From NCBI RefSeq assembly GCF_000014745.1, contig NC_008347.1, positions 124,001 to 188,000 on the forward strand: a stretch of 64,000 nt of DNA, written 5' to 3'. Of the stretch, positions 7,390 through 56,638 are shown piece by piece. The notes beneath the pieces are model-generated. The model saw only the letters and a list, made by a program, of their open reading frames with translations. It was not told where the DNA came from and did no database searches. Positions within the stretch are counted from its first letter, which is position 1, and every line of letters begins with the position of its first letter. The stretch comes from Maricaulis maris MCS10 (GTDB lineage Bacteria; Pseudomonadota; Alphaproteobacteria; Caulobacterales; Maricaulaceae). A program made the position numbers and the translations under genes.

Positions 7390-7400
7390 GTGGCAGAAAC

Positions 7401-7520
7401 CCCCTCACCCGACCCTTCGGGCCACCCTCTCCCGCGAGGGGAGAGGGCGTTCTTGTTAGCGGCGCACTGACACGCCTTCTCCCCTCGCGGGAGAAGGTCC
7501 CCGAAGGGGGGATGAGGGGG
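7401..7520. repeat. Inverted pair of palindromic extragenic repeats
   Basis: Two related units lie head to head between rplT and pheS. The first (7401-7447) reads CCCCTCACCC then a CTCTCCC-GGGAGAG-type hairpin. The second (7475-7520) has CCTTCTCCC-GGGAGAAGG and ends GATGAGGGGG, the reverse complement of the first unit's start. The same unit pair occurs at 26826-26932. This is a common repetitive extragenic family in alphaproteobacteria with no coding content. Confidence 0.8.
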
Positions 7521-7605
7521 CATTCTTGTTGCCCAGCCGCGCCCGGCAGTCGACACACAAAACCCCAGCCGCTAAATCCTTCCCGACCGTATGGGACGAC
7601 ATGAC

Positions 7606-11708: not shown

Positions 11709-11710
11709 TC

Positions 11711-33549: not shown

Positions 33550-33781
33550 GGCGGGCTCCGAAGCCTAAGAACTGGCTTCAAGATAGGTGTCCCGCTCCGA
33601 AAAACCAGTGCCGGCGGCTGCAATGACTGCCGATCCCGTCATGTCCAAGCCCCGCTTCCGGCGGTCGTTCCGGTCCGCATAACCGGCCGATTGTTTTTGG
33701 TGCCCATCATCCCGGTGCCCTCGCCCGAGAGAAGCGCTGAAAAAACTCCGACCAGAGCGCTAAAATGCTGAGCAAGACGCC

Positions 33782-33809
33782 TTGCCTCTGCCCGCCCGAT
33801 GCGTATAGT
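33782..33809 (+). promoter_or_regulatory. Probable promoter of tRNA-Ser
   Basis: TTGCCT (33782-33787) and TATAGT (33804-33809) are 16 bp apart and end 12 bp before the mature tRNA 5' end, a good sigma-70-type layout for a tRNA gene. Confidence 0.6.
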
Positions 33810-33821
33810 CCGCGCCTTCGC

Positions 33822-33911
33822 GGTGAGGTGGCCGAGTGGTCGAAGGCGCACGCCTGGAACGCGTGTAGGCGGGTAACCGTCTCGTGGGTTCGAATCCCAC
33901 CCTCACCGCCA
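33822..33911 (+). tRNA. tRNA-Ser (anticodon GGA), site of island integration
   Basis: The 90-nt gene encodes CCA. The acceptor GGTGAGG pairs with CCTCACC (33901-33907). The anticodon stem is CACGC/GCGTG with loop CTGGAAC, so the anticodon is GGA. A long variable arm (GTAGGCGGGTAACCGTCTC) and T arm GTGGGTTCGAATCCCAC mark a class II tRNA-Ser. The last 19 bases plus two more form the left copy of the 21-bp island repeat, so integration leaves the tRNA intact. Confidence 0.97.
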
Positions 33912-33913
33912 CT
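33893..33913 (+). other. attL core: left 21-bp direct repeat of the island
   Basis: AATCCCACCCTCACCGCC plus ACT lies at the tRNA-Ser 3' end and recurs exactly at 56618-56638. The bases on each side differ (G versus A before; A versus C after). This is the expected product of tyrosine-integrase insertion into a tRNA gene. Confidence 0.93.
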
Positions 33914-33976
33914 ATTCCCAAAACCGCAAACCCCTCCAACGGTTACGATTTTGGCGTTTGGCCGCCAGGCTAAAAC

Positions 33977-33997
33977 GTTCCTATTACCTGTTCCTAT
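33977..33997 (+). repeat. Left-arm GTTCCTAT repeats (candidate integrase arm sites)
   Basis: GTTCCTAT occurs at 33977-33984 and 33990-33997. The first copy is 84 bp from the start of the attL core. The same octamer family occurs beside the internal core and beside attR, always in the same orientation. Confidence 0.65.
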
Positions 33998-34019
33998 TCC
34001 TCCTGCCGGAGGCGGCCCG

Positions 34020-35726
34020 ATGAGCGGCCGCCGGGTGCAACACCTCGTCGTGCGCGGAAAGAGCTTCCAGGTCCGGCTCTATGTGCCGGTCGATCTCCAG
34101 TCGGTCTTAGATCGAAGAGAGCTGCGCTGGTCAGTTCGAACGCGTGAGCCGTCGGTTGCGAAAAGTAGGGCGCTCAACGCGAGCCTCGCCTTTCACCGTC
34201 TCTGCGATAAGCTACGTCTTATGAAGAAGTTGAGCGTCGATGATGCCCGCGAGATCGCGCGGGCGTTCTACCAGAAACTCGCGGATAGCTATCAAACCCC
34301 GGAGCCCGTGCATCCGGCGGATCAAGACTGGCTCGACCACACCCAGGAGCAGATTGTCGAGGAGATGGTGCTGGACCTGGGGCGGGAGATCAGCAACCAG
34401 GTCTATTCTGCACCTGTGGTTACAACGGCCAGGACGGTCGCAGGCGAGGCTGGCTACGATTTTCCGAGCGAGGGAACCGAAGCGTTCAGAGCGATTTGTC
34501 AGGGCATCGCTCGCGCCCAGGTCGAGCATGCGCGCTACACGCTCTTCCGGCAGCAGGACTTGCTTAAGCCGTACGAGACGCAGGACGAACTATTCCGGGG
34601 TGGAGCCAAGGCCGCTTCATCATCCGTGTTGAATGTTGCTGAGGTGATCCAGGGTGGCCTGTCGTTGGGCGAGGCCATCGAAAAGTATGTCGCTGCGCAT
34701 GCCAGCGGGCCAAATGCCTGGAAGCCCAAAACCGGAGAAGAGAAGGAGCGGACCTTCAAAATGGTTCAGGCCCTTCTGGGGGCGAACCGTCCAATTAAGC
34801 AGATCAAGACGGAGCATGTACGCGAGCTGCGTGATTTCCTCCAGGCGGTGAAGGCCAAGGCGAAGCTCAATGAAAGCCAGCCCGAAAAAATGCTGGCCAA
34901 AGCAGAACAAGACCGGCTCAACCCGAAGACCGCCGCGAAGTATTTCGGCTACGTCCGGGCCTTGTTGAGGTGGCTTGTTGCCGAGGGGTATCTGGAGGCA
35001 GAGCCGGGGGCGACCATAAAGCTGGCAACGCCAAAAGGCGGAGGAAAGAAAGCCGTCCGTCCTTTCTCCACAGATGAGCTGGATCAGGTGTTTACCTCGC
35101 CGCTCTATGCGGGTTTCAAATCCACCAACCAGCGTCATCTGCCCGGTAAGATGAAGCGGCAGGACGGGATTTACTGGATGCTCCTGCTCGGTCTTCACAC
35201 AGGCATGCGGTCCGGAGAGCTACTTCAACTCGCCAAGTCGGATATCCGGTTAAACGAAGAAATTCCTTACATCGATATCAGGGGAGACCTCGACCTGAAG
35301 ACCGAGGCGTCCGTCCGGCAGGTGCCAATCCATTCTAACCTGTTCAGCTACGGTTTGGCCGGTTGGCTGGCCGCACGGCCGAAACAGGCCGAGGAGAGGC
35401 TGTTCTGCGAGATCAAACTCGGTGCGGCTGGGCATCGGACCAGTGCGGCATCGAAGAAGCTCAATGGATACCTGGCACGCATTGGAGTGAAGAAAGGGCG
35501 CGAGCTGGTGTTTCATAGCTTCCGGCACGCGTTCATTGATGCGGCTCGCAGTAGCGAGGTCCCGGATGAACGCATCAGGGAGATCGTCGGGCACAAAGAT
35601 ACGAGCATCACCGGTGGTTATGGTCAGGGTGCGAGTTTGGCGGCCCTGATGAAGGAAATGACCAAGATCGAGTTCGGGCTAGCTGAGGCGACACGGACGC
35701 TGTTGCAGGGCAACGCGCTGAAATAG
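34020..35726 (+). CDS. Tyrosine-type site-specific integrase of the island
   Basis: The 568-residue recombinase starts [23 protein letters not shown] and has an N-terminal DUF6538-like/arm-binding region and a central core-binding helical domain. The catalytic domain has R397 (HTGMRSGE), H499 and R502 (HSFRHAF), H525 (VGHKD) and nucleophile Y534 (TGGYGQG). It would recombine the attP/attB cores at tRNA-Ser. An open frame extends back through the tRNA to 33765; the true start is after the arm repeats. It is placed next to attL, pointing inward, as is usual. Confidence 0.95.
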
Positions 35727-39281: not shown

Positions 39282-39307
39282 TGTGGTGGTGCTTGACGCG
39301 CCTAAAG

Positions 39308-39349
39308 GATGTGTATAGAAAGGCGACCCATAAACAAACTATACACATC
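39308..39349 (+). promoter_or_regulatory. 11-bp inverted-repeat operator before the defence operon
   Basis: GATGTGTATAG (39308-39318) and CTATACACATC (39339-39349) are perfect inverted repeats 20 bp apart, ending 11 bp before the WYL regulator ATG. WYL/wHTH regulators of the BrxR/CapW type bind such inverted repeats to repress their own defence operons, so this is the likely operator. Confidence 0.8.
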
Positions 39350-39360
39350 AGGGGTTGGCG

Positions 39361-40212
39361 ATGGTGCCGGTCGAAGACATCAGTTGGAGTGTGGAGCAAC
39401 GGCTCGAATTTATCGAGTTTCGTCTCTTCTGGTATGGCGGCGTAAATCGCGGCGACATTGCCGGTGAATTTGGTGTTTCGGTCCCGCAGGCGTCTAAAGA
39501 TCTCAGTCGGTACCAGGAGGTCTGTCCGAGTAACGTTCGGTATGACGCGAGTGAAAAGCGGTACACGACGACGGATCAGTTTAGTCCGCGCTTTATAAGT
39601 CTGGACCCGGATGCCTTTCTGCGCGGATTAGTTGGCGAGAAGGGTGCGACTGTTGGTGCCGTGCAGGCTGAAGCTTGCCCAGTGCCGCGTCGGAAGGTTG
39701 ATCCTCACACTCTACGTGAAATCGTCGCCGCTGTTCGGGCCGAGAAGTCGGTTGAGATCAGATATCAGTCGATGTCATCCCATAAACCCGACCCGGAGTG
39801 GCGGTGGGTGTCGCCGCATGCTTTCGGATCGGATGGTTTGCGTTGGCATGTTCGTGCATTCTGCCACCAGGATCGGAAGTTTAAGGACTTCCTGCTTTCC
39901 CGGTGTTCTGGTGCCCGTGGGGCATCACCGGCCGAAGCCTCGTCGGATGCGGATCTTAGTTGGGCGCGGTCCTTTGAAGTCGAGCTTGAGCCCAACCCGC
40001 GGCTCAGCGACAGCCAGCAAAGCGCGGTGGCGACCGATTTCTGCATGGAGGGCGGGCTTTCCCGCGTTCAGGTGCGTCGCGCCATGCTCTACCATTTCTT
40101 TCGTCGCATGAGACTAGATGCCGTTGACCAGGTCGATGGCCCCCAGGAAGCGCCTGTTGTCATTCGTAATCGTGAGGCTTTTGACGCCGCCTTGGCGGAG
40201 GCGCTGGCATGA
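39361..40212 (+). CDS. WYL-domain regulator (BrxR/CapW-like)
   Basis: The 283-residue protein has an N-terminal winged helix (RLEFIEFRLFWYGGVNRGDIAGEFGVSVPQASKDLSRY) and a central WYL domain (VEIRYQSMSSHKPDPEWRWVSPHAFGSDGLRWHVRAFCHQDRKFKDFLLSRC). A C-terminal dimerisation domain follows. This is the layout of BrxR/CapW repressors of phage-defence loci. The perfect inverted repeat upstream and the 4-nt overlap with hsdR support autorepression of the whole operon. The ligand that relieves repression is unknown. Confidence 0.87.
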   Translation: MVPVEDISWSVEQRLEFIEFRLFWYGGVNRGDIAGEFGVSVPQASKDLSRYQEVCPSNVRYDASEKRYTTTDQFSPRFISLDPDAFLRGLVGEKGATVGAVQAEACPVPRRKVDPHTLREIVAAVRAEKSVEIRYQSMSSHKPDPEWRWVSPHAFGSDGLRWHVRAFCHQDRKFKDFLLSRCSGARGASPAEASSDADLSWARSFEVELEPNPRLSDSQQSAVATDFCMEGGLSRVQVRRAMLYHFFRRMRLDAVDQVDGPQEAPVVIRNREAFDAALAEALA

Positions 40213-43200
40213 AGTCCGTCAATTTCGAAATCCTGCGTAAAGACTGGCCAGAGCTCGCTCAGCTGGGCGCGTTTGCTGAGACATACGCGCATACAGACGC
40301 GGCGAGCGCCCTGGTTAAGCTTCGGCTGTTCGCGGAAAATCTCACTAAGGATATCTACCGCGATCTGCGCCTGCCTCGTGAAGATCGTATGTCCTTTGTC
40401 GACATGCTTGGTGGCAGCGCGTTTCAGTCAGCAATCCCGCGTGTTGTGATCGATAAGCTTCATGCGATCCGTGTCCACGGAAACAAGGCGGCCCATGGTG
40501 AGCAGGCGACCATTAAGACGGCTCTCTTTCTGCTGAAGGAAGCGCACGGATTGGCGCGGTGGCTGCTTGTGGCGTTTAAGCGCCAGAAAGCAGACGATCT
40601 TCCGCTTTTCAAAGAGCTGGATAACCCTGTCCAGGGAGCAAGTGCCACCGAGCTTCAACGCGAGAAAAAGCGGGCAATGGAGCGCCTGGCGGCCCAAGAA
40701 GCACAGATGCAGGTGCTGCTGAAAGAGCTCGAGGCGGAGCGCGAGAAAGCCAAGGCGGCTGAGGCGAAGACGGAGGAGCTTTCCGCTGCCCGTGAGGAAG
40801 GCGACAAGGCGGCATCGGAGCTTGAATTCGACGAGGCGACAACTCGAGCTCGGATCATCGACATGATGCTCGCCTCGGCTGGGTGGGATGTCGCCAACGG
40901 TCTCAAATCGACGGAACAGGTTGCCAAGGAGTTGGAAGTCGCCGACCAGCCGACCGAGACCGGCAAAGGCTATGTCGACTACGTCCTGCGTGATGGCGAC
41001 GGTATGCCGCTCGCAGTCGTGGAGGCGAAGCGAACCTCAAAGAACGCCGAACTGGGTCGCAAACAGGCGGAGCTCTATGCCAATGCGCTGGAGAAGCAGT
41101 ACGGTATCCGTCCGGCGATCTTTTACACGAATGGCTATGACATTTGGCTGTGGGACGATGCGGGCGGTTTCCCGCCGCGCAAGGTCTACGGCTACTACTC
41201 GCCGGATAGCCTCCAATATCTGGTGCGGTTCCAGCGGGCGAATAAGCAGCCGCTGACGGCGCTGCCGCCAAACAAGGACATCGCCGGCCGCCTCTACCAG
41301 GTTGAGACCATCAAGCGCGTCAGTGAGCGGTTCGAAGATAAGCACCGCAAGGCCCTGATCGTTCAGGCGACGGGGACCGGTAAGACGCGGGTCGCCATCG
41401 CGCTGTCAGAGCTGCTGATCCGCGCCAAATGGGCCAAGCGGGTGCTCTTTCTGTGTGACCGGAGGGAGCTCCGCAAACAGGCTAAAAACGCATTCGGAAA
41501 TTTCCTCAAGGGCGAGCCGATCCGCGTCGTCAACTCGGCCATTCGCGGGAATGCGAACGAACGGATATTCGTCGCGACCTACCCGGCGATGCTGAAGGTC
41601 TATCAGGCGTTTGACGTCGGATTTTTCGACCTGATCATCGCGGACGAGAGCCATCGCAGCATCTACAATGTCTATGGCGACCTGTTTTACTACTTTGATT
41701 GTCCCCAGGTTGGCCTGACCGCGACCCCTGTCGATTTCGTCACGCGGTCGACCTTCGATCTCTTCAAGTGCGAGGGGCAGAACCCGACCGCGAACTATGA
41801 GCTCGAACAGGCTATCGAAGAGGGCTACCTTACCCCGTTCGAAGTCTATGAGCACACGACCAAATTCCTGCGGGAAGGTATCCGCCTAGAGGGTCTGACC
41901 AAGGCCCAGCGCCAGCAGCTCGAGGATCAGGGCGAAGACCCGGATCAATACGACTATTCCTCAGAAGTCGTCGACAAGGCGATCTTCAACAAGGACACGA
42001 ACCGCGCCGTCCTGCGCAATCTGATGGAAAACGGCCTGCGGGACGCCAGCGGACAGACCATCGGCAAGACGATCATCTTTGCGCGCAGCCATGCCCACGC
42101 CCTCTTGCTGCGCGAGGTGTTCGATGAGCTCTATCCGCAATATGGTGGCCGCTTCTGCCAGGTCATCGACAACTATGATCCGCGCGCAGAGCAGCTGATC
42201 GACGACTTCAAAGGCGACGGCGCGAACAAGGACCTCACTATCGCGATCTCCGTGGACATGCTGGACACGGGCATCGACGTTCCGGAAATTCTCAACCTGG
42301 TCTTTGCAAAGCCGGTCCGCTCGCCGGTGAAGTTCTGGCAAATGGTGGGGCGCGGGACGCGTCTGTGTGAGGATTTGTTCGGTCCCGGCCAGCACAAGAC
42401 CGTTTTCCGCATCTTCGATCACTGGGGCAATTTCGAGCGTTTCGAGACCGGCTACAAACCCGCAGAGCCACGCCCGTCCAAATCGCTTCTGCAACAGCTC
42501 TTCGAGCAGCGGATCGACCTGGCGGAGACGGCCCTCCGCAAGAGTGAAATCCCGGTCTTCGAGACAGTCGTGCAATTAATTGCAGCCGACGTTTCGGCCC
42601 TGCCGGAAAACTCCATCGCCGTTCGTGAGAAGTGGCGGGAGAAGCGGCAATTCGCCGACCTTGAAACGGTCAAATCCTTCGCCCCGACAACGGTGGCGGC
42701 GCTTCGCCAGACCATCGCGCCTCTGATGCAGTGGCGGGATGTGCGGGGCAAAACCGAAGCCCATGCGTTTGATCTGTTGATCGCCCGGCTCCAGACGGCG
42801 GCCCTTCAAGGGTCTGCGGAGGTCGAGGACCTAAGAGCGGACATGATGGGACGGCTCGACACGCTGCAAATGCACCTGAACCCCGTCCGCGAGCGGGCGG
42901 AAATCATCAAAGAGGTGAAGTCGGCTGCGTTCTGGTCCGACCTCAAGCCGTTGGACCTGGAGCGGGTTCGCATCCCGCTTCGCGAGATCATCCACCACCA
43001 TGACCGCAAGGCCGGGCCGAAAGTACCGGCGAAGGTCATCGATGTGGAAGAGGAGGCGTCGGAGTTTCAATACGGCCGCCGGGCCACCTCCTACACCGCC
43101 AATGAGATGAAGGCGTTCAAGCAGGCGGTGGATGCCGAGCTGAAGAAGCATATCGAGACCAACCCCATCCTGCAGAAAATCCGCAATGGCGAGCCGGTCA

Positions 43201-43622
43201 CAGATGCCGACCTGCAAGCTATCGTCTCTCTCGTCCTGACCCAGAACCCGGATCTCAGTGAAGCCCAGCTCAACGAATTCTTCTCGCCAACGGCGGAGAA
43301 TTTGTTGTTCAAACTGCGGGAAATGACGGGCCTGGAGGCCACGACGGTGCGGGACCGCTTTGCGGACTTCGTGAACGCGCACCCTACACTGACGGCCAAG
43401 CAGACCCGCTTCCTCAACCTGTTGCAGAACCATCTGATCAAGTTCGGCGTCATCACGGTCGACCGGCTGTATGACCAGCCTTTCACGGTGGTCGATGCGG
43501 ATGGACCGGACGGGGTCTTCGACGAGCCCGATCTGATGAACGAACTCATGACCATCATTTCTCAATTCGCGCCGCCCTCAACGAGCCGTGAGAGCGCGGA
43601 AGATAAAAGGACGCCCAACTAA
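40209..43622 (+). CDS. hsdR: Type I restriction endonuclease subunit R, with DUF4145-like N-terminus
   Basis: The 1137-residue protein begins with a DUF4145-like helical domain ([32 protein letters not shown]). A coiled coil (residues 150-200) and the HSDR_N nuclease part follow ([29 protein letters not shown], with D and E-x-K). The SF2 motor has Walker [13 protein letters not shown] (K392), ADESHRS and the [13 protein letters not shown] motif VI. It cuts DNA after translocation when the target is unmethylated. The gene overlaps its neighbours (4 nt before, 1 nt after). Confidence 0.95.
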
Positions 43623-45148
43623 TGCTGACGAGTGAATTACGACGCCGCGTCGACGCGCTCTGGACTGAATTCTGGCAAGGCGGGATCACCAACCCGCTGA
43701 CAGTGATCGAACAGATCACCTTCCTGATGTTCATCCGTCTCCTGGACGTCAACGAGACGCGGGACGAGAAGCACCAGAACCGCACCGGCTATGAGTTCAA
43801 GCGGCGCTTCGGCCCGGATGAGCAAAATCTGCGCTGGAATGAGTTCCGCCATTTGGGCGGCGACGAGATGCTCGTGCGCGTCCGTGATGGCGTATTCCCG
43901 CATCTGCGCAAGTCGAGCCCGACAGGGTCCAGCTTCGCCGAGTTCATGAAGGACGCGCAGCTGATGATCCAGAAGCCCTCTCTGTTGGTGAAGGCGGTCA
44001 GCATCGTCAATGATTTGCCGCTGACCGAGGGTGATACCAAGGGCGATCTCTACGAATATCTGCTCAGCAAGCTCACGACAGCGGGCATCAACGGCCAGTT
44101 CCGCACGCCCCGGCACATCATCAAGCTGATGGTGGACATGCTGGAACCGAAACCCACGGACCGCATTTCAGACCCGTCCTGCGGCACCGGCGGGTTCCTC
44201 GTGAACGTCATGGAATACCTGCTACGGGCCTATACCTCGCCGGAAGCCGTGATCAAGGAGACGGACCCGGAAACCGGCAAGACGGAAACCCTCTATCCCG
44301 GCGATCAGCTGGAGGGGCATTGGGACCACATCAAGGGCGACATGTTCCACGGCTTCGACTTCGACGCCTCCATGCTACGCATCGCGGCGATGAACCTCAT
44401 GCTGCATGGCGTCGATAATCCGGACATCCACTATCAGGACACGCTGAGCGGCAGCTTCACCGACAATTTCCAGGCCTCGGCCACGGAAGGCTTCGATGTC
44501 ATCCTCGCCAATCCGCCCTTTAAGGGCAGCCTGGATTATGAGGATGTCCATCCCAACCTGTTGAGCGCGGTCAAGACTAAGAAGACCGAGCTGCTCTTCC
44601 TGGTCCTGATCCTGCGCATGCTGAAGCCCGGCGGCCGGTCGGCGACGATTGTGCCGGATGGTGTGTTGTTCGGCTCGTCCACGGCCCACACAGCGCTCCG
44701 TAAGAAGCTGATCGACCAGAACCAGCTGGAAGCCGTCATCTCGCTCCCCAGCGGCGTGTTCAAACCCTATGCGGGCGTGTCGACCGGCATCCTGGTCTTC
44801 TCGAAGGGCGGGGAAACGCGGGACGTGTTTTTCTACGATGTCGAAGGGGACGGTTTCTCGCTGGACGACAAGCGCGATCCGCGACCCGATGAAGACGATT
44901 TGCCGGATTGCTTGGCGCGCTGGAAGGCGCGGGACCCGGCCAAGGACACGGACCGGACCTGCAAGGCCTTCTTTGTCCCGGCCACTGAGATCCGGGAGGC
45001 GAATTACGACCTATCCCTCAGCCGCTACAAGGAGCGGGTCTATGAGGAGGAAGAATACGATCCGCCAAAGGATATTCTCGGCCGGATGAAGGCGCTGAAT
45101 GCGGAGATCGATCAAGACCTGGCAGCTCTGGAGGAGATGCTGGGATGA
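43622..45148 (+). CDS. hsdM: Type I DNA methyltransferase subunit M
   Basis: The 508-residue N6-adenine methylase has an HsdM N-terminal helical domain ([28 protein letters not shown]). The SAM-binding motif I is [12 protein letters not shown] (from residue 184) and the catalytic motif IV NPPF is at N297. The specificity is set by the downstream HsdS. Start and stop are coupled to hsdR (TAATG) and hsdS (4-nt overlap). Confidence 0.97.
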
Positions 45149-46296
45149 GCCCCACAATTGCGCTCGGCGATATTGTCAAACTCCGTAAAGGCCGGAAGGC
45201 GCAGGAAGTTCTTTCTGCCGCAGCTGCCGGCGCGCTCCCGTATATCCAGATTGACGAGGTAAGAGGGGTAGCGCCCACGAAATACGCAAAAGATCCTAGC
45301 GCGGTAGACGTCGGCCCAGACGACCTTTGTATTGTTTGGGACGGAGCAAATGCGGGTACGGTTGGTTATGGGCTCAGCGGCGCAATTGGGAGCACTGTTG
45401 CCCGCATTCGCTTTTCAGATCACGGCCAATGGGATGCTGCATTTGTTGGTCGCCTGCTCCAAGGAAAATTTCGACAGCTTAACGATCAGGCTCAAGCGCG
45501 AGGCGCGACCATCCCTCACGTGGACAAGTCTAAGCTCGAACAGCTCGCTATTCCGCGCATTGATTTGGATGAACAACGCCGGATCGCGGCGATCCTGGAC
45601 AAGGCGGATGCGATCCGCCGCAAGCGCGAAGAGGCCCTCGCCCTCGCCGACGACTTCCTGAAATCGACCTTCTTAGAGATGTTTGGTGATCCGCTTGCGC
45701 CGGAGCCGCACGGTAGTATCAGCACGATCGACACAGAGTGCGATTTGTTTGCCGGAAACTCTCTGCCAAGAGGCGAGGAATTCAGAGGACAAGACCGTGG
45801 GTGTCTACTTTTGAAGGTTTCAGACCTCAATTCAGAGGGGAATGAAACTCAAATTGTTTCATCAAAGCTTTGGGTGCCACCAAACGAAAAATTGCGCGCC
45901 AGTATGGTTGCACCCGCTGGATCAATTGTTTTTCCCAAGAGGGGAGGGGCTATATCAACCAATAAGAAGCGCGTTCTTAGCCGCCCCGCTGTTCTAGACC
46001 CTAACCTAATGGGGGTCGCACCCAAATCTGGCTCCTCAATTTCGTTTCGCTACCTTCGAAACTGGTTTGAACTCCTGGACTTGGTGACGATATCAAGCGG
46101 GAGTACCGTGCCCCAATTGAACAAGAAAGACGTGGGGCCATTAAGGATTGTTGTCCCGACACCTGTCGATCTGGAGCGTTTCGACAACATCTATGAGCGG
46201 TCCGCGAAATTGCGGGAGAAGCTGCGGTCGGCGTGGGATAGCTCAGCGCACCTTTTCGCCTCCCTCTCCCAGCGCGCATTCCGGGGCGAATTGTGA
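45145..46296 (+). CDS. hsdS: Type I specificity subunit S
   Basis: The 383-residue protein has two target-recognition domains. TRD1 is about residues 5-150 ([17 protein letters not shown], ending [41 protein letters not shown], the central conserved helix). TRD2 is about residues 175-350, closing with [29 protein letters not shown]. It recognises a split DNA sequence that cannot be read from the protein. TRD2 (45.7-46.1 kb) is visibly more AT-rich than its surroundings, consistent with TRD exchange. Confidence 0.95.
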
Positions 46297-46814
46297 GCCC
46301 GGCGGTTCATACTCTCACCCTGCCAGGGCCGATGCTTCAGCGCGGCTTCTGGCTCTATGTCTGGCGGGTGCGCACGCCTGGGGGCGAGATGCTGTATGTC
46401 GGCCGGACCGGCGACAGCTCTAGCCCGCACGCTACTGCTCCCTATACGCGCATGGGCCAGCATCTGGGCTTCGCGAAGGCCAGCAATAGTCTGCGCCGTC
46501 TCCTCCTGGAAAACGAAGTAGAGCCGGAGGCCTGCGAGGCGTTCGACCTCGTTTCTTTCGGTCCGATCTTCCCTGAGGTCAGCGCCGAGGCCGGTGCGGA
46601 TCGCAATGAACGCATGAAGCATCACAAGCCGATCCGCGACACGCTCGCGGGTCTGGAAAAGCAGCTCCGTGATGCGCTTCACACGTCGGGCTACCAGGTC
46701 CTGAATATCGTGCACTCGAAGAAACCGGTCAACGCCGCCTTGTGGGCAGATGTGCGGGACGCCTTCGCGGGGCATTTCCCCAAACTCACCGACCTGGACG
46801 ATGGAGTGACCTGA
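46293..46814 (+). CDS. GIY-YIG-like small protein in the restriction operon
   Basis: The 173-residue protein starts with GTG overlapping the hsdS stop by 4 nt. Residues 19-55 (FWLYVWRV, GGEMLYVGRTGDSS, YTRMGQHLGF) have the strand-loop-strand-helix order of GIY-YIG nucleases: a (W)LYV strand, a YVGRTG strand, then a helix with Arg. The catalytic Glu is not certain. It could be a nuclease or a degenerate binder. Tight coupling suggests work with the restriction system, but such a partner is not standard for type I systems. Confidence 0.6.
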   Translation: MSPAVHTLTLPGPMLQRGFWLYVWRVRTPGGEMLYVGRTGDSSSPHATAPYTRMGQHLGFAKASNSLRRLLLENEVEPEACEAFDLVSFGPIFPEVSAEAGADRNERMKHHKPIRDTLAGLEKQLRDALHTSGYQVLNIVHSKKPVNAALWADVRDAFAGHFPKLTDLDDGVT

Positions 46815-46817
46815 CCG

Positions 46818-47735
46818 ATGAGCGATCTGAAACTCTTCCGCCTGGACGGGCCGTCGGTCTGTGAGATCGAAGGCTCATCCGCCGCGCTGGAAAAATCCCT
46901 TCAGGACCTGATCGAGCGTAATCTGGAGACCTTTCTGGGCGTGCGCTTCCTGGCGTCGGAATTCTCGACCGGGCGCGAGCATGGCGGGCGGATGGACACA
47001 CTCGGGATCGATGAAAACGGCTGCCCCGTGATCATTGAGTACAAGCACGCCACCAACGCCAACGTCATCAATCAGGGCCTCTTCTACCTCGATTGGCTGG
47101 TCACTCATCGCGGTGACTTCGAGATGCTGGTGCTCAAGGCGTTCGGGCAGGAGGCGGCGCAAAGCGTCGAGTGGACAGCGCCGCGGCTTATCTGCATCGC
47201 CGGTGATTTCAGCCGGTATGACGAACACGCCATCAAGCAGATGAACCACAATATCGAGCTGATCCGCTATGTCCGCTTTGGCGAGGACTTGTTGATGCTG
47301 GAGCAGGTCAATGCGGTGTCGGCGACGGGCAATGGAGCGGCTACAGGCGCTCTCTCCTCGTCGGGCGGTGGCGCCCAATACAAGACGGTCACCGAATACC
47401 TGGGAGACGCTGACCAGGCACTCACGGACCGTTTCGAGGCGCTGAAAGAGCACCTGTTCAATCTCGGTGACGACGTCCAGCTGAAGACGCTGAAATACTA
47501 TCTGGCCTTCAAGCGCATCAAGAATTTCGCCTGTGTCGAGCTGCGCAACCGGTCCGGCGTGATCCTGGTTTATCTGAAAATCGATCCGGACAGCGTCCAG
47601 CTAGAGGACGGGTTCACCCGCGATGTCCGCAAGATCGGTCATTACGGGACCGGCGATCTGGAGGTGACGTTGCGCTCCGCGGATGATCTGGAAAAAGCCA
47701 AACCGCTGGTCGAACGCAGCTATGAGAGCGCGTGA
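46818..47735 (+). CDS. DUF5655/PD-(D/E)xK nuclease-like protein
   Basis: The 305-residue protein has an N-terminal PD-(D/E)xK-type core: LETFLGVRFLASEF, GGRMDTLGIDENGCPVIIEYKHATNANVINQGLFYLDWL, with D of RMDTLGID and E-x-K of IEYK as candidate catalytic residues. A low-complexity linker (about 175-195) is followed by a DUF5655-like C-terminal domain (ALKEHLFNLGDDVQLKTLKYYLAFKRIKNFACVEL, VYLKIDPDSV, GTGDLEVTLRSADDLEKAKPLVERSY). It lies 3 nt after the GIY-YIG-like gene. Relatives often occur beside restriction genes. Confidence 0.8.
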   Translation: MSDLKLFRLDGPSVCEIEGSSAALEKSLQDLIERNLETFLGVRFLASEFSTGREHGGRMDTLGIDENGCPVIIEYKHATNANVINQGLFYLDWLVTHRGDFEMLVLKAFGQEAAQSVEWTAPRLICIAGDFSRYDEHAIKQMNHNIELIRYVRFGEDLLMLEQVNAVSATGNGAATGALSSSGGGAQYKTVTEYLGDADQALTDRFEALKEHLFNLGDDVQLKTLKYYLAFKRIKNFACVELRNRSGVILVYLKIDPDSVQLEDGFTRDVRKIGHYGTGDLEVTLRSADDLEKAKPLVERSYESA

Positions 47736-47744
47736 GGGGTTTAG

Positions 47745-49532
47745 ATGCGACTGACACGAATAGAGATCGAAAACTTCAAGGGCATCGGCAAACGCCAGGT
47801 GATCGACCTCGCGCCCATCACGCTCCTGTTCGGGCCGAACAGCGCCGGCAAGAGTACCGTCCTGCAGGCGCTTCATTACGTCCGGGAGATATTGGAGCGC
47901 CAGAACCCGGACCCGGATGAAACCATCGCGGGCGGGCTCATTGACCTAGGAGGGTTCACTTCGCTCGTGCACCGGCATGAGCTGGACCGGGCGATACAGA
48001 TCAAGCTGGTGGGCTCGCTCAACGAAGGTGAGGTCAACGAGTACCTGGAACTAAACACCGGCGAGTTTCTCATTGATGATCGCTTCGCCGCCCTGCCTAT
48101 TCGATACCTGATCGGCGAAAATTCGGACCTTAAGGATCGCGGCGTTGTTGAGACCGTCGCCGTCGAGTTCAGTGTCAGTTGGAGTGACGCGCACGACGCT
48201 CCCTACGTTGACCGCATCAGCTTTGAGATGGACGGTGAGCGCACCCTATCGATTGAAAGCAAGCCGGATCGAGGTCGCGCTATTCTCACCGGTTTTAACT
48301 TCAAACACCCTCTGTTCCAGCAGTTCATCGACCTGGATGATGAACTCGACGAAGAGGAGCTTGATGGGCTCGCCTCGGATCCAAGTGAGGCACCTGAGGA
48401 CCCATTCTCATCCCCACTGGGAAGCGAGGTCTGGGAGCTTTCAGCCGACCTCTCGATGGAAACATCGCCACTCGCGGGCAGTGAATTCCGCGTCGCAGCC
48501 TGGACCCCCTTTGGTGCGCTTCCGGATTTGGATCGAGATTTGGACATCGCGCTTACGGAGGTGGATGAGAGCGAGGTACAGGATAAGCACTCAAGCGGCG
48601 CTGCGGTGCAACGTTTGACCAAGTCCGCCCAGGAAGAAGTGAAGCGCGAGCTAATCGGAGAGGCCCGCCGCCGAGACGCGCTCGAAGAAACGCTCGATGA
48701 GCTAGTTCGAGGGCCGTTGCGGATTTTAAGGGCACATCTTAAGGCGACGAGGTATGTGGGGCCGCTTCGGGACATCCCTTCACGTTCGTTCTCGCCAAAA
48801 GCCTCACCCGATGAAGGCCGGTGGGCTTCGGGATTGGCCGCTTGGGATCGCTTGGCACAACCAGGCTCGGAACGGTTGCTGCGCGAAACAAATGCTTGGT
48901 TGGCAGACAGTGATCGGTTGAACATTGGCTGTCAGGTCGAGCGTTTGCACTATCGGGAAGTGCCGGTTCCAGGGGCTATATCCGCGTTGTTTGAGCGCGG
49001 GTTGACCGAAGATGATCTGGGTCTTCTTCAGGAGCTCTACCAGGATCTCGCGGTTCGTACCGAATTGTCGCTTCGCGATCTGAAGGCGGGTGTTGTGGTC
49101 GCGCCTGCGGACGTTGGGGTGGGGGTGTCTCAACTCGTGCCGGTCGTTGTCGCGTGCCTCGATGACTATGAAAGCATCCTGGCTATCGAACAGCCTGAGC
49201 TTCACATTCATCCGGCCGTGCAGGTTGGGTTGGGTGACCTCTTCATTTCTGCTGCAGCCAATGCTGATCTCGATACGGGCAGCACAACTCTACTCGTCGA
49301 AACGCACAGCGAGCATCTGATGTTGCGCCTCCTGCGGCGCATTCGAGAGGCCTCGGAGGGCGACATTCCTCCATGTGGTCACTCACTGCGGCCTGAGGAA
49401 CTGTCCGTCATCTACGTAGAGGCGACAGATGAGGCGGTACGTTTCAAGCGTCTGCGGATCGATAGCGATGGGGAATTCATAGATCGCTGGCCCAAAGGCT
49501 TCTTTGAAGAACGGGCGGAGGAGCTTTTCTGA
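47745..49532 (+). CDS. AAA ATPase with DUF3696, putative defence component
   Basis: The 595-residue SMC/ABC-like ATPase has Walker A GPNSAGKST at residues 30-38 and Walker B LAIEQPELHIHP. The H-loop region is LLVETHSEHLMLRLLRRI, and the C-terminal DUF3696 end is SDGEFIDRWPKGFFEERAEELF. A long acidic insertion lies between the two ATP-binding halves (about residues 200-240). ATPases of this type act as the sensor half of several two-gene anti-phage systems. Its stop overlaps the start of a PLD-like gene by one base, which points to a sensor/effector pair. Confidence 0.88.
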   Translation: MRLTRIEIENFKGIGKRQVIDLAPITLLFGPNSAGKSTVLQALHYVREILERQNPDPDETIAGGLIDLGGFTSLVHRHELDRAIQIKLVGSLNEGEVNEYLELNTGEFLIDDRFAALPIRYLIGENSDLKDRGVVETVAVEFSVSWSDAHDAPYVDRISFEMDGERTLSIESKPDRGRAILTGFNFKHPLFQQFIDLDDELDEEELDGLASDPSEAPEDPFSSPLGSEVWELSADLSMETSPLAGSEFRVAAWTPFGALPDLDRDLDIALTEVDESEVQDKHSSGAAVQRLTKSAQEEVKRELIGEARRRDALEETLDELVRGPLRILRAHLKATRYVGPLRDIPSRSFSPKASPDEGRWASGLAAWDRLAQPGSERLLRETNAWLADSDRLNIGCQVERLHYREVPVPGAISALFERGLTEDDLGLLQELYQDLAVRTELSLRDLKAGVVVAPADVGVGVSQLVPVVVACLDDYESILAIEQPELHIHPAVQVGLGDLFISAAANADLDTGSTTLLVETHSEHLMLRLLRRIREASEGDIPPCGHSLRPEELSVIYVEATDEAVRFKRLRIDSDGEFIDRWPKGFFEERAEELF

Positions 49533-50455
49533 TGCTCTATGAATATGCGGTGGACCCCGAAATTACCCGGCGAGAGGTTGCTGAGCTCCAGCACCTCTTC
49601 GCGCTCTTCGGACTGGATCGCGGGAGGTACATCTCCAAGTTTCCAGAGCGGCGATGGCTTCGATTAGCGTATCAAGCCGTTGCTGGTCGCCCAGAAGTCG
49701 AGAAGAAGCGCATCGAAATTCTGTTGGGTCGAGCCAAGTCCGACAAACTATTTTTCAGCTATCGGAACTATGACCCCAATATTGGATGGTCAGATAATGT
49801 GGTCGCAGAGCACACGGCTCGTCCATTTCAAGCAATTATTGCTGAAGAGGCCGACCCAGGGGTGGCGGCCTGGGTAGCGAGCGAGAACGTCGATGAAGGG
49901 CACGAGCTGTTCGCGTGTGCGCCGACCTGTCGAGTTCCGAGGACCGCTGCGGCTATTGCTGAGAAATTGGCCCCGATAGCCATGGCAGGAAACAGGTTCG
50001 TCCTGGTGGACCCTTATCTCGATTTGCGAAACCTGAAAGGACAGGACCACCGCTCAACCATTCGTGAATTGTTGGGATTGCTCGCAGCGAACGGTCTTGA
50101 AAATGTGACCTTGGAGCTGCACTGGCGAACCCACGATACACGTCCTCCTGAAAGCTTCGTTGTTTCGCACGCTAGCGGGTGGTGCAAAGGCATTCTTCCC
50201 GCTGGCTACAAGTTGGAGATTTATGAGTGGTCCGAACGCCAGGGTGGCGAGGATTTCCACGACCGCTTCTTCTTGACCGACGCAGGGGGAGTAGTGGTCG
50301 GAGCAGGTTTCGAAGTCATTGGAGCGCATGAGCAGGTTCAAATCGGGTTGCTAGCTCCCGCAGATGTGGCGTCTCACTTGGCCGACCTCGATCCAGCGAA
50401 CGGAGCTTTCGATTTGGTCTTCGGTCCGGTGATAGTGGAAAGTGATCAAGCCTGA
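49532..50455 (+). CDS. PLD-like putative effector nuclease paired with the ATPase
   Basis: The 307-residue protein ends with a phospholipase D-like half-site: EDFHDRFFLTDAGGVVVGAGFEVIGAHEQVQIGLL, where H-x-(K/R)-x-n-D is HDRFFLTD. Upstream is FVLVDPYLDLRNL, the strand typical of this fold. The N-terminal 120 residues (ITRREVAELQHLFALFGLDRGRYI, DKLFFSYRNYDPNIGW) match nothing I know. One half-site implies a dimer, as in Nuc-type nucleases. The start is coupled to the ATPase (TGATG). Nuclease action is inferred. Confidence 0.68.
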   Translation: MLYEYAVDPEITRREVAELQHLFALFGLDRGRYISKFPERRWLRLAYQAVAGRPEVEKKRIEILLGRAKSDKLFFSYRNYDPNIGWSDNVVAEHTARPFQAIIAEEADPGVAAWVASENVDEGHELFACAPTCRVPRTAAAIAEKLAPIAMAGNRFVLVDPYLDLRNLKGQDHRSTIRELLGLLAANGLENVTLELHWRTHDTRPPESFVVSHASGWCKGILPAGYKLEIYEWSERQGGEDFHDRFFLTDAGGVVVGAGFEVIGAHEQVQIGLLAPADVASHLADLDPANGAFDLVFGPVIVESDQA

Positions 50456-50709: not shown

Positions 50710-53268
50710 CTAAAGCCGCGGATCAACCGGCTCTGTCTCCAGGGCCAGAACACCAAAGACGCACTCGTGCACCCGCGCTAGCGGTGCGTGCTGGGTGAAG
50801 CGGTCGAGTGCCTCCAGGCCCAAGCTGAATTCACGCAAGGCGAGTGATCTCTTCCGGCCGAGCCCGCGCTCCCGCAATCGTTCGAGATGCGCTGGGGCGT
50901 CATAGTCGGGGCCGTAAATGATGCGGAGGTATTCCTTACCCCGCACTTTGACGGCGGGCTGGATGAGCCCCTTCTTGCCGCGAGCGATGAAGGTCGACGG
51001 TTTGACGACCATGCCTTCGCCGCCCTTCGCCGTCATATCGTCCCACCATTGCGCCGCTGCCTCACAAGCGGAAGCGTCGGACAGGTCGACCGAGCGCCAG
51101 CGGGTGCTCATCAGAAGCGGATCGTTCTGGTTTGCCAGCTCCGCCAGAGTTTCCATGTGCCAGCTGTGCGGTTTGTCGGTGTGGACATGGCCATCACTGG
51201 CGAGAATATGGAAAGGTGCGATCTTGAGATCGTCCAGGCCCTCTACCGGCCAGACATATTGCCGGTAGGCGTCTCCGAACCCTTTGATCGCCTCGAGGCG
51301 TTCTGCGTTAGCCTTCGCCTCCCCGGACAGATCAACGCCGCGTTCCAGAGCCTTCTCCAGCACGGACTGCGCAGCTATGAGGCCCAAGAGACCGGCGCTG
51401 CCCACGCGGGCGTATTGATGCTCGATCAGGCTTTGAGCCTTGGTCGACCAAGGCAAAATTTCCATGTCGAGACAGAACCAGCTCGCGTCGAACTTGTCCC
51501 ACCAACCCGCCTTTGTGATGGCATCGCGCATCCGCGCGGTGACCTGGCGTTCTTGCTCGGCGGAGAAGAACGGCCGCCCCGTCCGGGTATAGATCACGCC
51601 GGTCCGGCTGGACGACTTGAAGTGTGTCTCGGCTGCGTCCTCGTCACGGCAGATGACGGCCACGGCGCGAGAGCCCATATGCTTTTCTTCGCAAACGACG
51701 GCGTCGACGCCTCGCGATCGATAGAAATCGAAGGCTTCCTCCGGCCGCTCAAGCCAACCCTCTTTCTGACAGGTCTCGACCGGCGACATTGTGGGCGGCA
51801 GATAGATCAGCCAGCGAGGGTCTACGGCGAAACGGCTCATCGTCTCTAATGCACCTGCGGAATGCGCTTCGGAGATTGTCACCAGACCGTTCGTGCCGGT
51901 CTCGATAGAGCGTTTTCCGAGGACATCGTCCAGCCGGATGGCGGTCGGGTCAGCGGCCGTAGCGACCTTAACCAGTGGCTTGACGGGTTCACACCAGACC
52001 TGCTCGGCCGGGACGTCGACAATCTCTTGTTCCGGCCAGCGCAAAGCCGTCAGCTTGCCGCCGAAGACACAGCCCGTGTCGATACAGATGGTTCCGTTGA
52101 CCCATTCAGCCTCGGGCGTCGGCGTGTGACCGTAGACGACCTTGGCGCGTCCGCGATAATTCGCGGCCCAGTCCGCACGAACGGGCAAGCCGAATTCGTC
52201 GATTTCACCGGTCGTATCGCCATACATGGCAAAGCTGCGCACCTTGCCGCTGGCACGGTTGTGCATGTCTTCGCTCAAGCCCGCATGCGCGACGACCAAT
52301 TTGCCCTCGTCGAAGACATAGTGGCTGATCAGACCATCCAGCCAGACGCGCATCTCTTCGGCAAAACCCTCCGGCTGAGCCTCGAATTGTTCCACTGTCT
52401 CGGCCAGGCCGTGGGTCAGCTGGACATTGCGACCATTCAGCTTGCGGACCAGCTTGTTTTCGTGATTGCCGATGACGCAAAAAGCCGTACCCGCCTCGAC
52501 CATACCTTTGACGAGACGCAGCACATCGGGCGAACGCGGGCCGCGGTCGACGAGGTCGCCGACGAAGATGGCGCGGCGGCCCTCTGGCGGTGTCACCTCA
52601 TAGCTGCGCAGTCCCGGTTCGCCGTCGCGAGCGATGGTGTAGCCGAGCTCTTCCAGCAGGCTTTCCAGCTCACCGGCGCAACCATGGATGTCGCCGATGA
52701 TGTCGAATGGGCCACTCTCTGACCGCTTGTCCGGCCAGAGCGGCATGCGCTCGATGGCTGCCAGCGCGTCCATCTCCTCCGGCGTGTCGAAGACGTGAAC
52801 ATTGCGCACGCCCTCGCGCTTCTGCAGACCCTTGAAGCCACGTTTCATGGCCTTGAGATGATTGCGCACGACGTGCGAGCCAAAGCTGCGGTTCTCGCGT
52901 TGCTGATTGCGCGCGCGGCAGATTTTCTCGTCGATGAAGAAGGCCAGGGCAACGGGCAGCGCGTGGTATTTCCGGGCCAGCGCTACAAATCGCGCGCGAT
53001 CCTCGGGCTTCACATTGGTGGCGTCGATAACCGTCAGGCGGCGCGCGGTGAGGCGCTTTTCCGCAATGAACTCGACCAACTCGAACGCGTCCTTGGTCAC
53101 GGACTGATCCGTCTCGTCATCGGCCAGCAGAGCGCGGCAGGTATCCGAGGAAACAATCTCGGTTTCCTTGAAATGCTTGCGTGCGAAGGTCGACTTTCCC
53201 GAACCGGACGGACCGATCAGGAGGATGAGGCAAAACTCGGGAATGGAGATGGAGGTGCGGCCTCTCAT
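50710..53268 (-). CDS. pnkp: Polynucleotide kinase-phosphatase-ligase (bacterial Pnkp)
   Basis: The 852-residue three-domain RNA-repair enzyme has an N-terminal 5'-kinase with P-loop GPSGSGKST (residues 19-27). The central metallophosphoesterase (2',3'-phosphatase) has DIIGDIHGCAGEL, FVGDLVDRG, VIGNHENKL, VVAHAGL and YGHTPTP. The C-terminal ligase-like adenylyltransferase has nucleophile Lys in CEEKHMGSRAV. The size agrees with Clostridium thermocellum Pnkp, which heals and, with Hen1, seals tRNAs cut by ribotoxins. It is the last gene of the hen1 operon; the start overlaps the SMI1-like stop by 4 nt. Confidence 0.95.
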   Translation of the reverse strand: MRGRTSISIPEFCLILLIGPSGSGKSTFARKHFKETEIVSSDTCRALLADDETDQSVTKDAFELVEFIAEKRLTARRLTVIDATNVKPEDRARFVALARKYHALPVALAFFIDEKICRARNQQRENRSFGSHVVRNHLKAMKRGFKGLQKREGVRNVHVFDTPEEMDALAAIERMPLWPDKRSESGPFDIIGDIHGCAGELESLLEELGYTIARDGEPGLRSYEVTPPEGRRAIFVGDLVDRGPRSPDVLRLVKGMVEAGTAFCVIGNHENKLVRKLNGRNVQLTHGLAETVEQFEAQPEGFAEEMRVWLDGLISHYVFDEGKLVVAHAGLSEDMHNRASGKVRSFAMYGDTTGEIDEFGLPVRADWAANYRGRAKVVYGHTPTPEAEWVNGTICIDTGCVFGGKLTALRWPEQEIVDVPAEQVWCEPVKPLVKVATAADPTAIRLDDVLGKRSIETGTNGLVTISEAHSAGALETMSRFAVDPRWLIYLPPTMSPVETCQKEGWLERPEEAFDFYRSRGVDAVVCEEKHMGSRAVAVICRDEDAAETHFKSSSRTGVIYTRTGRPFFSAEQERQVTARMRDAITKAGWWDKFDASWFCLDMEILPWSTKAQSLIEHQYARVGSAGLLGLIAAQSVLEKALERGVDLSGEAKANAERLEAIKGFGDAYRQYVWPVEGLDDLKIAPFHILASDGHVHTDKPHSWHMETLAELANQNDPLLMSTRWRSVDLSDASACEAAAQWWDDMTAKGGEGMVVKPSTFIARGKKGLIQPAVKVRGKEYLRIIYGPDYDAPAHLERLRERGLGRKRSLALREFSLGLEALDRFTQHAPLARVHECVFGVLALETEPVDPRL

Positions 53269-53864
53269 GCAAAAAATCCGTCCGTAGACTCGACGAAGTC
53301 GCTCCAAACAGGAATGCGGCGTTTTAGGTTCGGGAATGGTCGCTCACCTGGCCCGGATACAAACTCTCTCACGAGGTAGTCTGCCAAATCTGCCCCATAG
53401 TAGATGATGTCGGTTTGCCAGATCGAGAAGACAGGGTTTCTGTCTAGGCATGGATCGACGGGGAGATATCGATGTCCCGAAACTGGAACGAGGCGGGGCC
53501 AGGTTTTCATGTCCGCATCGGCAATTGCTTTCGCTTCAGCCAACGAGGAAGGGCGCTGCCCCCAACGGGAGAGCCAAATCTTGTTGTGTTCGATGTCAAA
53601 GTGGATACCGCTGTAAACACGCTCAATCGACGCTTTGTAACTCGCCAATGTGAACTCGGCCCACGGAAAGAAAACACCTCCGGGGTCCTGAACATGGGTC
53701 AGCAGAAAACGAAGGTCCGGCGGAAGGTCGAACCCCAAATCACGCTCAATGGCGTCAAGTTCATGGTTTGATACACCTTTGACGCCGTACTTGGGTGCTT
53801 GCCTGTTTCCGGTATGCTGATGCGCGTTCAGCTCGTCAAACAGGTCCTGGGAGAGCGTGATCAT
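53265..53864 (-). CDS. SMI1/KNR4-family protein in the RNA-repair operon
   Basis: The 199-residue protein has the SMI1/KNR4 (SUKH) pattern: GVSNHELDAIERDLGFDLPPDLRFLLTHVQDPGGVFFPW at residues 30-70 and VFSIWQTDIIYYGADLADYLVREF. SUKH proteins are often immunity proteins against nuclease toxins. Here it lies between rlaP and pnkp with 4-nt overlaps on both sides, so it belongs to the repair operon. Whether it neutralises an RNA-cutting toxin is an inference. Confidence 0.82.
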   Translation of the reverse strand: MITLSQDLFDELNAHQHTGNRQAPKYGVKGVSNHELDAIERDLGFDLPPDLRFLLTHVQDPGGVFFPWAEFTLASYKASIERVYSGIHFDIEHNKIWLSRWGQRPSSLAEAKAIADADMKTWPRLVPVSGHRYLPVDPCLDRNPVFSIWQTDIIYYGADLADYLVREFVSGPGERPFPNLKRRIPVWSDFVESTDGFFA

Positions 53865-54673: not shown

Positions 54674-55023
54674 AATGCCGCTCCCCCGGTTACTTCCGAA
54701 GGTCGCTCGTCGCGAACAAGCGTGGCCAGGTCCTCGTACCAGGAACAATCCATTCCAAAATACTCATCATCGGCGAAGATAAGGCCCCAAGGAGCGCCGA
54801 GGGCACCGTGTCCGCCTTCGCAATAGGCGATGACAATCTTGCGACCGCCCGCCGTCCCAACTTCTCCGACAATCCAGGCTGGGAACGCTTCGTCCTTCCC
54901 ATACTCCCAATGCAGCGTGGTTGTACGCGGCTCGATGAGCCGCTCGCTCAGCCAAGAGCGAGCCGCGTCATCAATTATCAGGCCGAGCTGCTCCTCAACC
55001 TTTCTGGTGACCGGGCTGTTCAT
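54670..55023 (-). CDS. Small unknown protein in the RNA-repair operon
   Basis: The 117-residue protein begins MNSPVTRKVEEQLGLIIDDAARSWLSERLIE and has a beta-rich middle (TTTLHWEYGKDEAFPAWIVGEV, IVIAYCEGGHGALGAPWGLIF). The end is ADDEYFGMDCSWYEDLATLVRDE. I do not recognise a family; the size and acidic WYEDL end recall small immunity-type proteins. It overlaps hen1 and rlaP by 4 nt each, so it is certainly part of the operon. Confidence 0.72.
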   Translation of the reverse strand: MNSPVTRKVEEQLGLIIDDAARSWLSERLIEPRTTTLHWEYGKDEAFPAWIVGEVGTAGGRKIVIAYCEGGHGALGAPWGLIFADDEYFGMDCSWYEDLATLVRDERPSEVTGGAAL

Positions 55024-56617: not shown

Positions 56618-56638
56618 AATCCCACCCTCACCGCCACT
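56618..56638 (+). other. attR core: right 21-bp direct repeat of the island
   Basis: This is an exact copy of the tRNA-Ser 3' end at 33893-33913, about 22.7 kb away. Only the T-arm 3' half, acceptor 3' strand and CCA are repeated, so no second tRNA is made. Confidence 0.93.

Follow-up and report, generated by a model that had tools for sequence, protein, structure and literature searches.

Why should a type I restriction-modification (RM) operon carry four genes beyond those for its three subunits, and do these four form one second system or several? The question is raised by a locus of Maricaulis maris MCS10, within a stretch of 64,000 nucleotides (contig NC_008347.1, positions 124,001 to 188,000; hereafter the window, with coordinates counted from its first base), where eight genes encode a WYL-domain repressor, HsdR, HsdM and HsdS, a GIY-YIG-like protein, a DUF5655 protein, an ABC ATPase and a protein with a likely phospholipase D (PLD) fold. 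An earlier note on this DNA had proposed that the last four genes, described as three nuclease-like folds and an ATPase, make up a second layer of defense behind restriction. Our analysis retains part of that proposal: the ATPase and PLD-fold genes are a conserved partnership linked to hsdRMS, whereas the GIY-like and DUF5655 genes are optional, the latter also occurring beside other type I RM systems or alone. The unit is thus an RM system plus an ATPase-PLD pair with a cassette slot between them, a variation on the established theme of restriction that is guarded or layered, and its unexpected property is the separate exchange of alleles in two parts, the middle of the ATPase and the body of the PLD-fold protein.

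The junction between the last two genes, which lie downstream of hsdS, indicates that they are translationally coupled. The ATPase stop and the PLD start share one base (TGATG, TAATG or, once, TAGTG) in 23 of 25 pairs, a count that includes near-copies, and a GGAG or GGAA resembling a ribosome-binding site lies within the last ATPase codons of the overlapping pairs; the two pairs that do not overlap are L027 and L028, both from Verrucomicrobiota. In genome contigs, 16 loci were recovered with a profile of the last gene. Two of these (L020, L022) start too near a contig end to be assessed, and in 13 of the other 14 hsdR-hsdM-hsdS lies directly upstream of the pair or of its preceding cassette genes, the exception being L027, from a Verrucomicrobia metagenome-assembled genome (MAG), in which the pair stands without RM genes. 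An Akkermansia MAG (L028) carries a different RM system, with an HsdR 34% identical to that of the window, and no WYL gene was seen at that locus. Some loci are incomplete: L025 is cut within hsdR; in L015, which is locus G207/L010, the hsdR and ATPase genes are in pieces; and L026 is an eroded copy with the WYL, R, M and S genes broken and a full-length ATPase gene. L019 and L024, from Acidomonas and Pleomorphomonas records, are 99.7% identical over 18 kb, which reflects either recent transfer across distant genera or contamination; since L026 is in turn 95% identical to L019 over 8.3 kb, these three loci are not independent.

The same arrangement extends to viral contigs and plasmids. Four viral-contig loci were found from the PLD-fold protein, each with the operon, and two of them are the contigs of L029 and L030. 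In L080 (10383-19927), on a viral contig of 41 kb, the operon adjoins phage-tail-like genes, named by eye, and may be prophage-borne. A Methylocella plasmid (HsdR 66% identical) has the pair after hsdRMS, as do Vibrio and Azotobacter plasmids (PLD profile E values of 7e-37 and 1e-50), where it lies 3′ of a sigma-54-type regulator gene. The pair ranges over several alphaproteobacterial orders, Gammaproteobacteria (two with the different regulator) and the Akkermansia MAG. Searches with the Vibrio and Azotobacter PLD proteins found no additional relatives among plasmids, the Vibrio PLD gene had no match as DNA in Escherichia coli genomes, and the window PLD protein had none among phage records. 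A Deinococcus plasmid (L007) carries, 5′ of its ATPase-PLD genes, a gene (10138-11895) that matches Piwi weakly (E 2.8e-5, under the Pfam cut-off), so that the pair might work for an Argonaute as well.

A search based on HsdR was run so that loci were not chosen by the pair itself. Among 299 genomes of the order to which the window belongs, nine had an HsdR match at 1e-100, and in three the match reached at least 63%: the window genome, G207 (in two pieces, 69 and 54%) and G275 (66%). The pair occurs in these same three. The sole further PLD match in the 299 genomes, in G229, is weak, partial and interrupted by a stop, with no relatives of the operon genes around it, and the HsdR loci at 37-40% (seven loci in six genomes) lack the pair in stretches of 15-20 kb. 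Nine of 385 genomes of the class matched HsdR, the window's included; seven of the others, at 36-42%, have no pair. Among plasmids, 36 records matched HsdR. Two at 66% belong to the same Methylocella species, and the one examined is that described above; six lie at 43-50%, with the pair in two. With the window excluded, these searches gave the pair in 3/3 loci at 63% or above, in 2/7 at 43-56%, and in none of the more distant ones examined. The link of ATPase-PLD to hsdRMS is real. The co-occurrence proposed in the earlier note holds to that extent, the pair and a close HsdR falling in the same 3/299 genomes, but the four extra genes do not travel as a block.

These distributions also bear on the possibility that the two genes act against phage on their own and have only the promoter in common with the RM genes, as defense genes cluster. 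Copies without RM genes exist, cassettes are gained and lost in the slot between hsdS and the ATPase gene, and the available part of one source describes BrxR regulators beside type I RM systems and in mixed islands (PMC9122601). Against such independence, position and gene order hold across several taxonomic orders and both kinds of regulator, all examined loci with HsdR at 63% or above have the pair (most of them having been found via the pair or the GIY gene), and the ATPase lobes share one history with HsdR, as described below. We consider mere cohabitation unlikely.

The slot itself was compared in 18 loci of the clade, a set that includes L026 but not L024, which duplicates L019. It is empty in 11 (L006, L011, L015, L016, L017, L018, L019, L021, L026, L078, L080), where 7-10 bases, most often 9, separate the hsdS stop from the ATPase start. 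Four loci (L013, L014, L023, L030) hold the GIY-like gene alone; one (L029) holds GIY and an EVE/T5orf172-like protein, together with a remnant of the ATPase start; one (L025) holds GIY, DUF5655 and an EVE/T5orf172 protein; and the window holds GIY and DUF5655. L025 is thus a near match, with one additional gene, to a combination that the earlier note had thought undescribed in exactly this form. In the GIY-containing loci other than the window, 9 bases lie between the hsdS stop and the GIY start, and in all four GIY-only loci the GIY stop overlaps the ATPase start. By these junctions the GIY-like gene is a precise insertion in the hsdS-ATPase junction. As to the third kind of cassette, the L025 protein (7293-8270) matches Pfam T5orf172 above and EVE below the cut-off, and the likeness of the L029 protein (10586-11707) was judged by eye.

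The GIY-like and DUF5655 genes are separate optional cassettes, and the candidate that all four extra genes form one system was rejected: GIY is absent from 11/18 and DUF5655 from 16/18 clade loci. Outside the operon both keep other company. Of four loci found with the GIY-like protein, two are in this operon (L029, L030), a Thioclava relative lies within another type I RM system, between its hsdS and hsdR genes, and an Agrobacterium relative adjoins another DNA methyltransferase; among the 385 class genomes only the window's own has the gene. For DUF5655, six contexts out of 41 plasmid records were examined, and four of them adjoin type I RM genes, the call for Aeromonas consisting of a 24% HsdM match and a reading by eye; in a Streptomyces plasmid no type I RM genes adjoin it, and the Lichenicola record starts at the gene, so that one side is visible. 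Elsewhere, other type I RM loci (L064, L066, L083, L085, L088, and perhaps L061, by length only) have between hsdS and hsdR a protein of about 300-325 residues with an MRG... start and rich in W, a likeness noted by eye; L064 and L088 have a further gene or genes there.

The nature of the cassette products is less certain than the insertion site. GIY-YIG proteins share the motif order GIY/YIG, R, H, E, N. This order is kept in an alignment of seven relatives, with LYVW and YVGRT at the tripeptide sites, and hhalign gave a probability of 10, where two controls gave 0.5 and 0.2, in a comparison that used four of the eight GIY-YIG proteins of the same genome. Pfam GIY-YIG matches four of the seven relatives weakly (best E 0.015) and does not match the window protein, and a structure search with its model (pLDDT 72.7) returned no fold match, so that the label first given to this gene is weakened. 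The DUF5655 protein matches the PADLOC candidate PDC-S18 (485.9 bits) and Pfam DUF5655 (E 5.3e-11).

More striking is the way in which the parts of the unit vary. Over 13 loci, mean pairwise identity falls from HsdM (0.84) and HsdR (0.78) through the ATPase (0.68), the WYL repressor (0.58) and the PLD-fold protein (0.48) to HsdS (0.34). Among 17 close pairs with HsdR at least 87% identical, drawn from seven loci, the conserved lobes of the ATPase (residues 1-77 and 332-595) average 0.94 and 0.89, its highly variable segment 78-331 averages 0.58, residues 41-307 of the PLD-fold protein average 0.50, and the HsdS target domains 0.29 and 0.23. WYL is also variable in these pairs (0.66 and 0.61), for which separate exchange is the sole account that we can offer. 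Individual comparisons show the parts moving singly: L006 and L029 have ATPase middles 87% identical and PLD bodies 32% identical, and L006 and L014 have PLD bodies 83% identical and ATPase middles 45% identical. Between L013 and L023, DNA identity is 83-100% up to the end of the ATPase gene (94% before the break), 78% over the first 100 bases of the PLD gene, and 35-65% thereafter. Distances in the HsdR motor and the ATPase C-lobe are correlated at r 0.96, a value reached in 0/2000 permutations, and those in the ATPase middle and the PLD body at r 0.10, reached in 530/2000; with loci few and partly related, permutation counts here and below are guides. HsdR and HsdM have evolved in concert with the ATPase lobes, and the ATPase middle and the PLD body are exchanged separately, like HsdS target domains.

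Such covariation might mean that ATPase-PLD is a working part of restriction, recruited by HsdRMS to process or cut the DNA that it has flagged. The constant place of the pair after hsdS and the covariation of the ATPase lobes with HsdR and HsdM would suit this, as would a real but weak correlation of the ATPase middle with the distal HsdS target domain (r 0.41, 4/5000 permutations). That correlation may reflect proximity, however, and has exceptions in the window, L017 and L011, which have an HsdS domain in common yet differ in the ATPase segment. Since HsdRMS sets without the pair occur on plasmids and in G596, and the pair occurs without RM genes in Deinococcus and the Verrucomicrobia MAG, such a role in restriction seems rather improbable.

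What, then, might the pair do? No family in Pfam, PADLOC or the defense profiles with curated cut-offs matches the last gene, and its PLD name is given because of a predicted fold and a motif. The AlphaFold2 model (pLDDT 90.9) has phospholipases D as its best solved matches in Foldseek (E 9.6e-5, probability 1.00), with a TMq of only 0.34, and a PLD fold is likely. The canonical motif of the PLD (HKD) nuclease superfamily is HxKx4D. In all 24 copies read HxR replaces HxK, and the acidic position is occupied by D or E in 21 copies and by N, A or K in those of Deinococcus, Vibrio and Azotobacter. The label given to this gene in the earlier note is accordingly softened, and its count of three nuclease folds was too strong, given 24/24 PLD-fold proteins with no HxKx4D and a GIY fold that structure search did not confirm. 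The PLD-fold protein could instead be a variable sensor or adaptor, the effector being the ATPase or another protein, an alternative that is compatible with a guarding role for the pair. The altered motif and strong, HsdS-like allele variation point in this direction; the invariance of His, Arg and a GG turn across a 17-sequence alignment that varies highly elsewhere suggests a retained site, and the ATPase has no effector domain recognized by Pfam. We regard a pure sensor as somewhat unlikely. For the ATPase, the Pfam match to DUF3696 (E 3.5e-5) is barely above the cut-off, and among solved chains those of OLD, GajA, PtuA and SMC align with the N-lobe alone.

Because of the analogy with PARIS, PrrC and the BREX backup modules, we propose that the pair acts as a guard or backup of the type I RM system, with its variable parts facing phage proteins, a reading that we hold as possible rather than probable. 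A CapW/BrxR-type repressor would hold the operon low. HsdRMS would mark host DNA and cut unmarked phage DNA, and the ATPase would hold or time its PLD-fold partner and then release or activate it when triggered by a phage protein, such as an antirestriction protein, or by blocked restriction. The outcome might be damage to nucleic acid or arrest of growth. The ATPase middle and PLD body, as presumed contacts of fast-changing phage proteins, would be swapped allele by allele, and the slot between hsdS and the ATPase gene would accept nuclease-like cassettes (GIY-like, DUF5655, EVE/T5orf172) that broaden the range.

Several observations weigh against this proposal. Four of the six plasmid HsdRs at 43-50% lack the pair, as does G596 (HsdR 56%), which also has no adjoining WYL gene; the 63% line for HsdR was set after the data were seen; and in the Deinococcus plasmid and the Verrucomicrobia MAG no RM genes stand beside the pair. 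Among the matches listed, the best 25 of 121 in PADLOC, the closest profiles to the ATPase are PDC-M55A (143.6 bits) and NsnB (138.9 bits), not AriA, and its partner is not a TOPRIM/DUF4435 protein. With no canonical motif in 24/24 sequences, nuclease activity of the PLD-fold protein is doubtful. The variable parts retain a weak correlation with HsdR (r 0.48 for the ATPase middle, 3/2000 permutations; r 0.45 for the PLD body, 46/2000), and their high variability could also stem from evasion of phage inhibitors instead of the sensing of triggers.

A bolder version of the guard proposal would treat the operon as an RM system with two exchangeable specificities, in which HsdS reads DNA and the ATPase middle and PLD-fold protein read phage proteins; this we offer as speculation that is somewhat unlikely to hold. 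In such an inbuilt guard, recombination would swap the sensor alleles while engine parts stay fixed, next to a cassette slot for further nucleases. The locus is a concrete, testable case of restriction with what is probably a dedicated second layer, an ATPase and PLD-fold pair with very variable parts, and it marks a site where nuclease-like genes join RM operons. If the variable parts are sensors, natural alleles could serve as tools for finding the phage proteins that trigger them.

The arrangement of the window operon suggests a common control of all these genes. ORF coordinates bear out eight same-strand genes with successive junctions of -4, -1, -4, -4, +3, +9 and -1 nucleotides, and one transcription unit from 39361 to 50455, as previously suggested, is likely. 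The perfect 11-bp inverted repeat reported upstream of the first gene is also present: its arms (39308-39318 and 39339-39349) are separated by a loop of 20 bp, end 11 bp before the ATG at 39361, and overlap the -10 element of the predicted promoter, and a repeat of 11 bp was reached in 0/400 dinucleotide shuffles of the 200 upstream bases, the longest being 10. A pattern of the TTGAC-N15..19-TATA type, picked after the sequences had been viewed, precedes 12 of 16 orthologous WYL repressor genes (near-copies L024 and L026 excluded; shuffle mean 0.2, maximum 3), and AAACTATA/TATAGAAA-type boxes lie upstream of 9 of the 16. The exact 11-bp repeat is not kept among relatives. Homology over nearly its full length to solved CapW and BrxR chains (CapW 9c5g, E 2.2e-50 over residues 8-271 of 283; 7tb5, E 1e-46; BrxR 7t8k, E 2.5e-36), together with Pfam WYL (E 1.2e-9), identifies the first gene product as a CapW/BrxR-type repressor, in agreement with the earlier prediction, and the repeat at the promoter is a good candidate for its operator. 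HsdR (nuclease-like motif, Walker A, DESH, QxxGRxxR) and HsdM (DPSCGTGG, NPPF) have catalytic motifs and, with HsdS, make up a complete type I RM system, a kind that uses ATP to restrict DNA and marks bipartite sites at N6-adenine.

Table. Features of the operon and of its island in the window.
Feature	Coordinates	Strand	Basis
Left att-like repeat, 3′ end of tRNA-Ser(GGA) 33822-33911	33893..33913	+	21-bp exact direct repeat
ORF with tyrosine integrase	33765..35726	+	Pfam Phage_integrase E 4.9e-16
Predicted promoter, TTGACG (39293-39298), N15, TATAGA, overlapped by proposed operator	39293..39349	+	Sequence pattern, shuffles
WYL-domain repressor, CapW/BrxR family	39361..40212	+	CapW/BrxR structures, Pfam WYL
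HsdR, type I restriction subunit, DUF4145 N-terminus	40209..43622	+	PADLOC REase_I 961.7 bits
HsdM, N6-adenine methyltransferase	43622..45148	+	PADLOC MTase_I 590.5 bits
HsdS, specificity subunit	45145..46296	+	PADLOC Specificity_I 156.4 bits
GIY-YIG-like optional cassette (LYVW, YVGRT, R53, H57, E122, N138 conserved)	46293..46814	+	Alignment of 7
DUF5655 protein, N-terminal PD-(D/E)xK-like motif (D60, E74, K76), optional cassette	46818..47735	+	PADLOC, Pfam
OLD/PARIS-like ABC ATPase, C-terminal DUF3696	47745..49532	+	Pfam, PADLOC, structure matches
PLD-fold protein (likely), altered motif HxRx4D, body 41-307 highly variable	49532..50455	+	Predicted fold, motif
Right att-like repeat, proposed island end	56618..56638	+	21-bp exact direct repeat

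The operon appears to sit on a tRNA-Ser genomic island (33893-56638) with the integrase gene at its left end; the integrase ORF overruns the tRNA, and its true start is probably further in. The same island carries on the reverse strand an RNA-repair cluster (50710-56429) encoding Pnkp, a SUKH-like protein (weak, below the cut-off), RlaP and Hen1, so that one mobile island unites RM, a possible growth-arrest effector and RNA repair. The cluster was set aside as a functional partner of the pair and is probably island cargo, because no Hen1 or RlaP relatives occur in the compared loci outside the window genome; one short Pnkp-like match (89 residues) was found, in L059. A serine-recombinase-type gene (57006-58691) directly follows the island and suggests a second element in tandem. 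In L064 (1431-7769; G133, same family) an integrase 56% identical and two upstream genes (58% and 65%) stand beside a different type I RM system, and this type of element seems to swap its cargo.

We found no published description of this ATPase-PLD pair among the titles and abstract openings that searches of the open-licence PMC literature listed. HsdM, HsdS and the ATPase weakly match MAD2, MAD5 and MAD3 of MADS, but this operon has a true HsdR and all three scores are far under the curated cut-offs (MAD2 134.3 of 720, MAD5 27.2 of 400, MAD3 32.8 of 420 bits), so that membership was rejected. PARIS, as outlined in the part of the source available, consists of an OLD-type ATPase sensor and a nuclease, guards RM and senses Ocr (PMC12707154). 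The present pair resembles it in joining an OLD-type ABC ATPase (69.7 bits to the AriA profile) to a small partner; it differs in lying within an hsdRMS operon and in an ATPase that carries DUF3696 and scores higher to PDC-M55A and NsnB. PARIS membership was rejected, the partner here being of a predicted PLD fold rather than a TOPRIM (DUF4435) AriB.

PrrC, the anticodon nuclease of the EcoprrI locus, with its two-domain make-up, is the product of a single gene, whereas the ATPase and PLD-fold protein are separate here, and family scans of the window proteins (for the ATPase, the best 25 of 121 PADLOC matches) gave no PrrC or HEPN match. The likeness lies in the placement of an additional effector inside a type I RM locus, that of PrrC sensing blocked EcoPrrI in the available account (PMC12707154). 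BREX backup modules pair an OLD-ABC ATPase with a changeable nuclease; in the accessible portion of the source the partners named for BREX and RM-like modules are TOPRIM, HNH, PD-(D/E)XK and PIN, and HKD/PLD is not among them (PMC12839542). BrxR/CapW-regulated loci share with this operon the repressor family and an association with type I RM, found for 34 of 210 BrxR-linked systems; in the part of that account available, the operator loop is 5 bp, as against 20 bp here, and an ATPase-PLD pair is not mentioned (PMC9122601).

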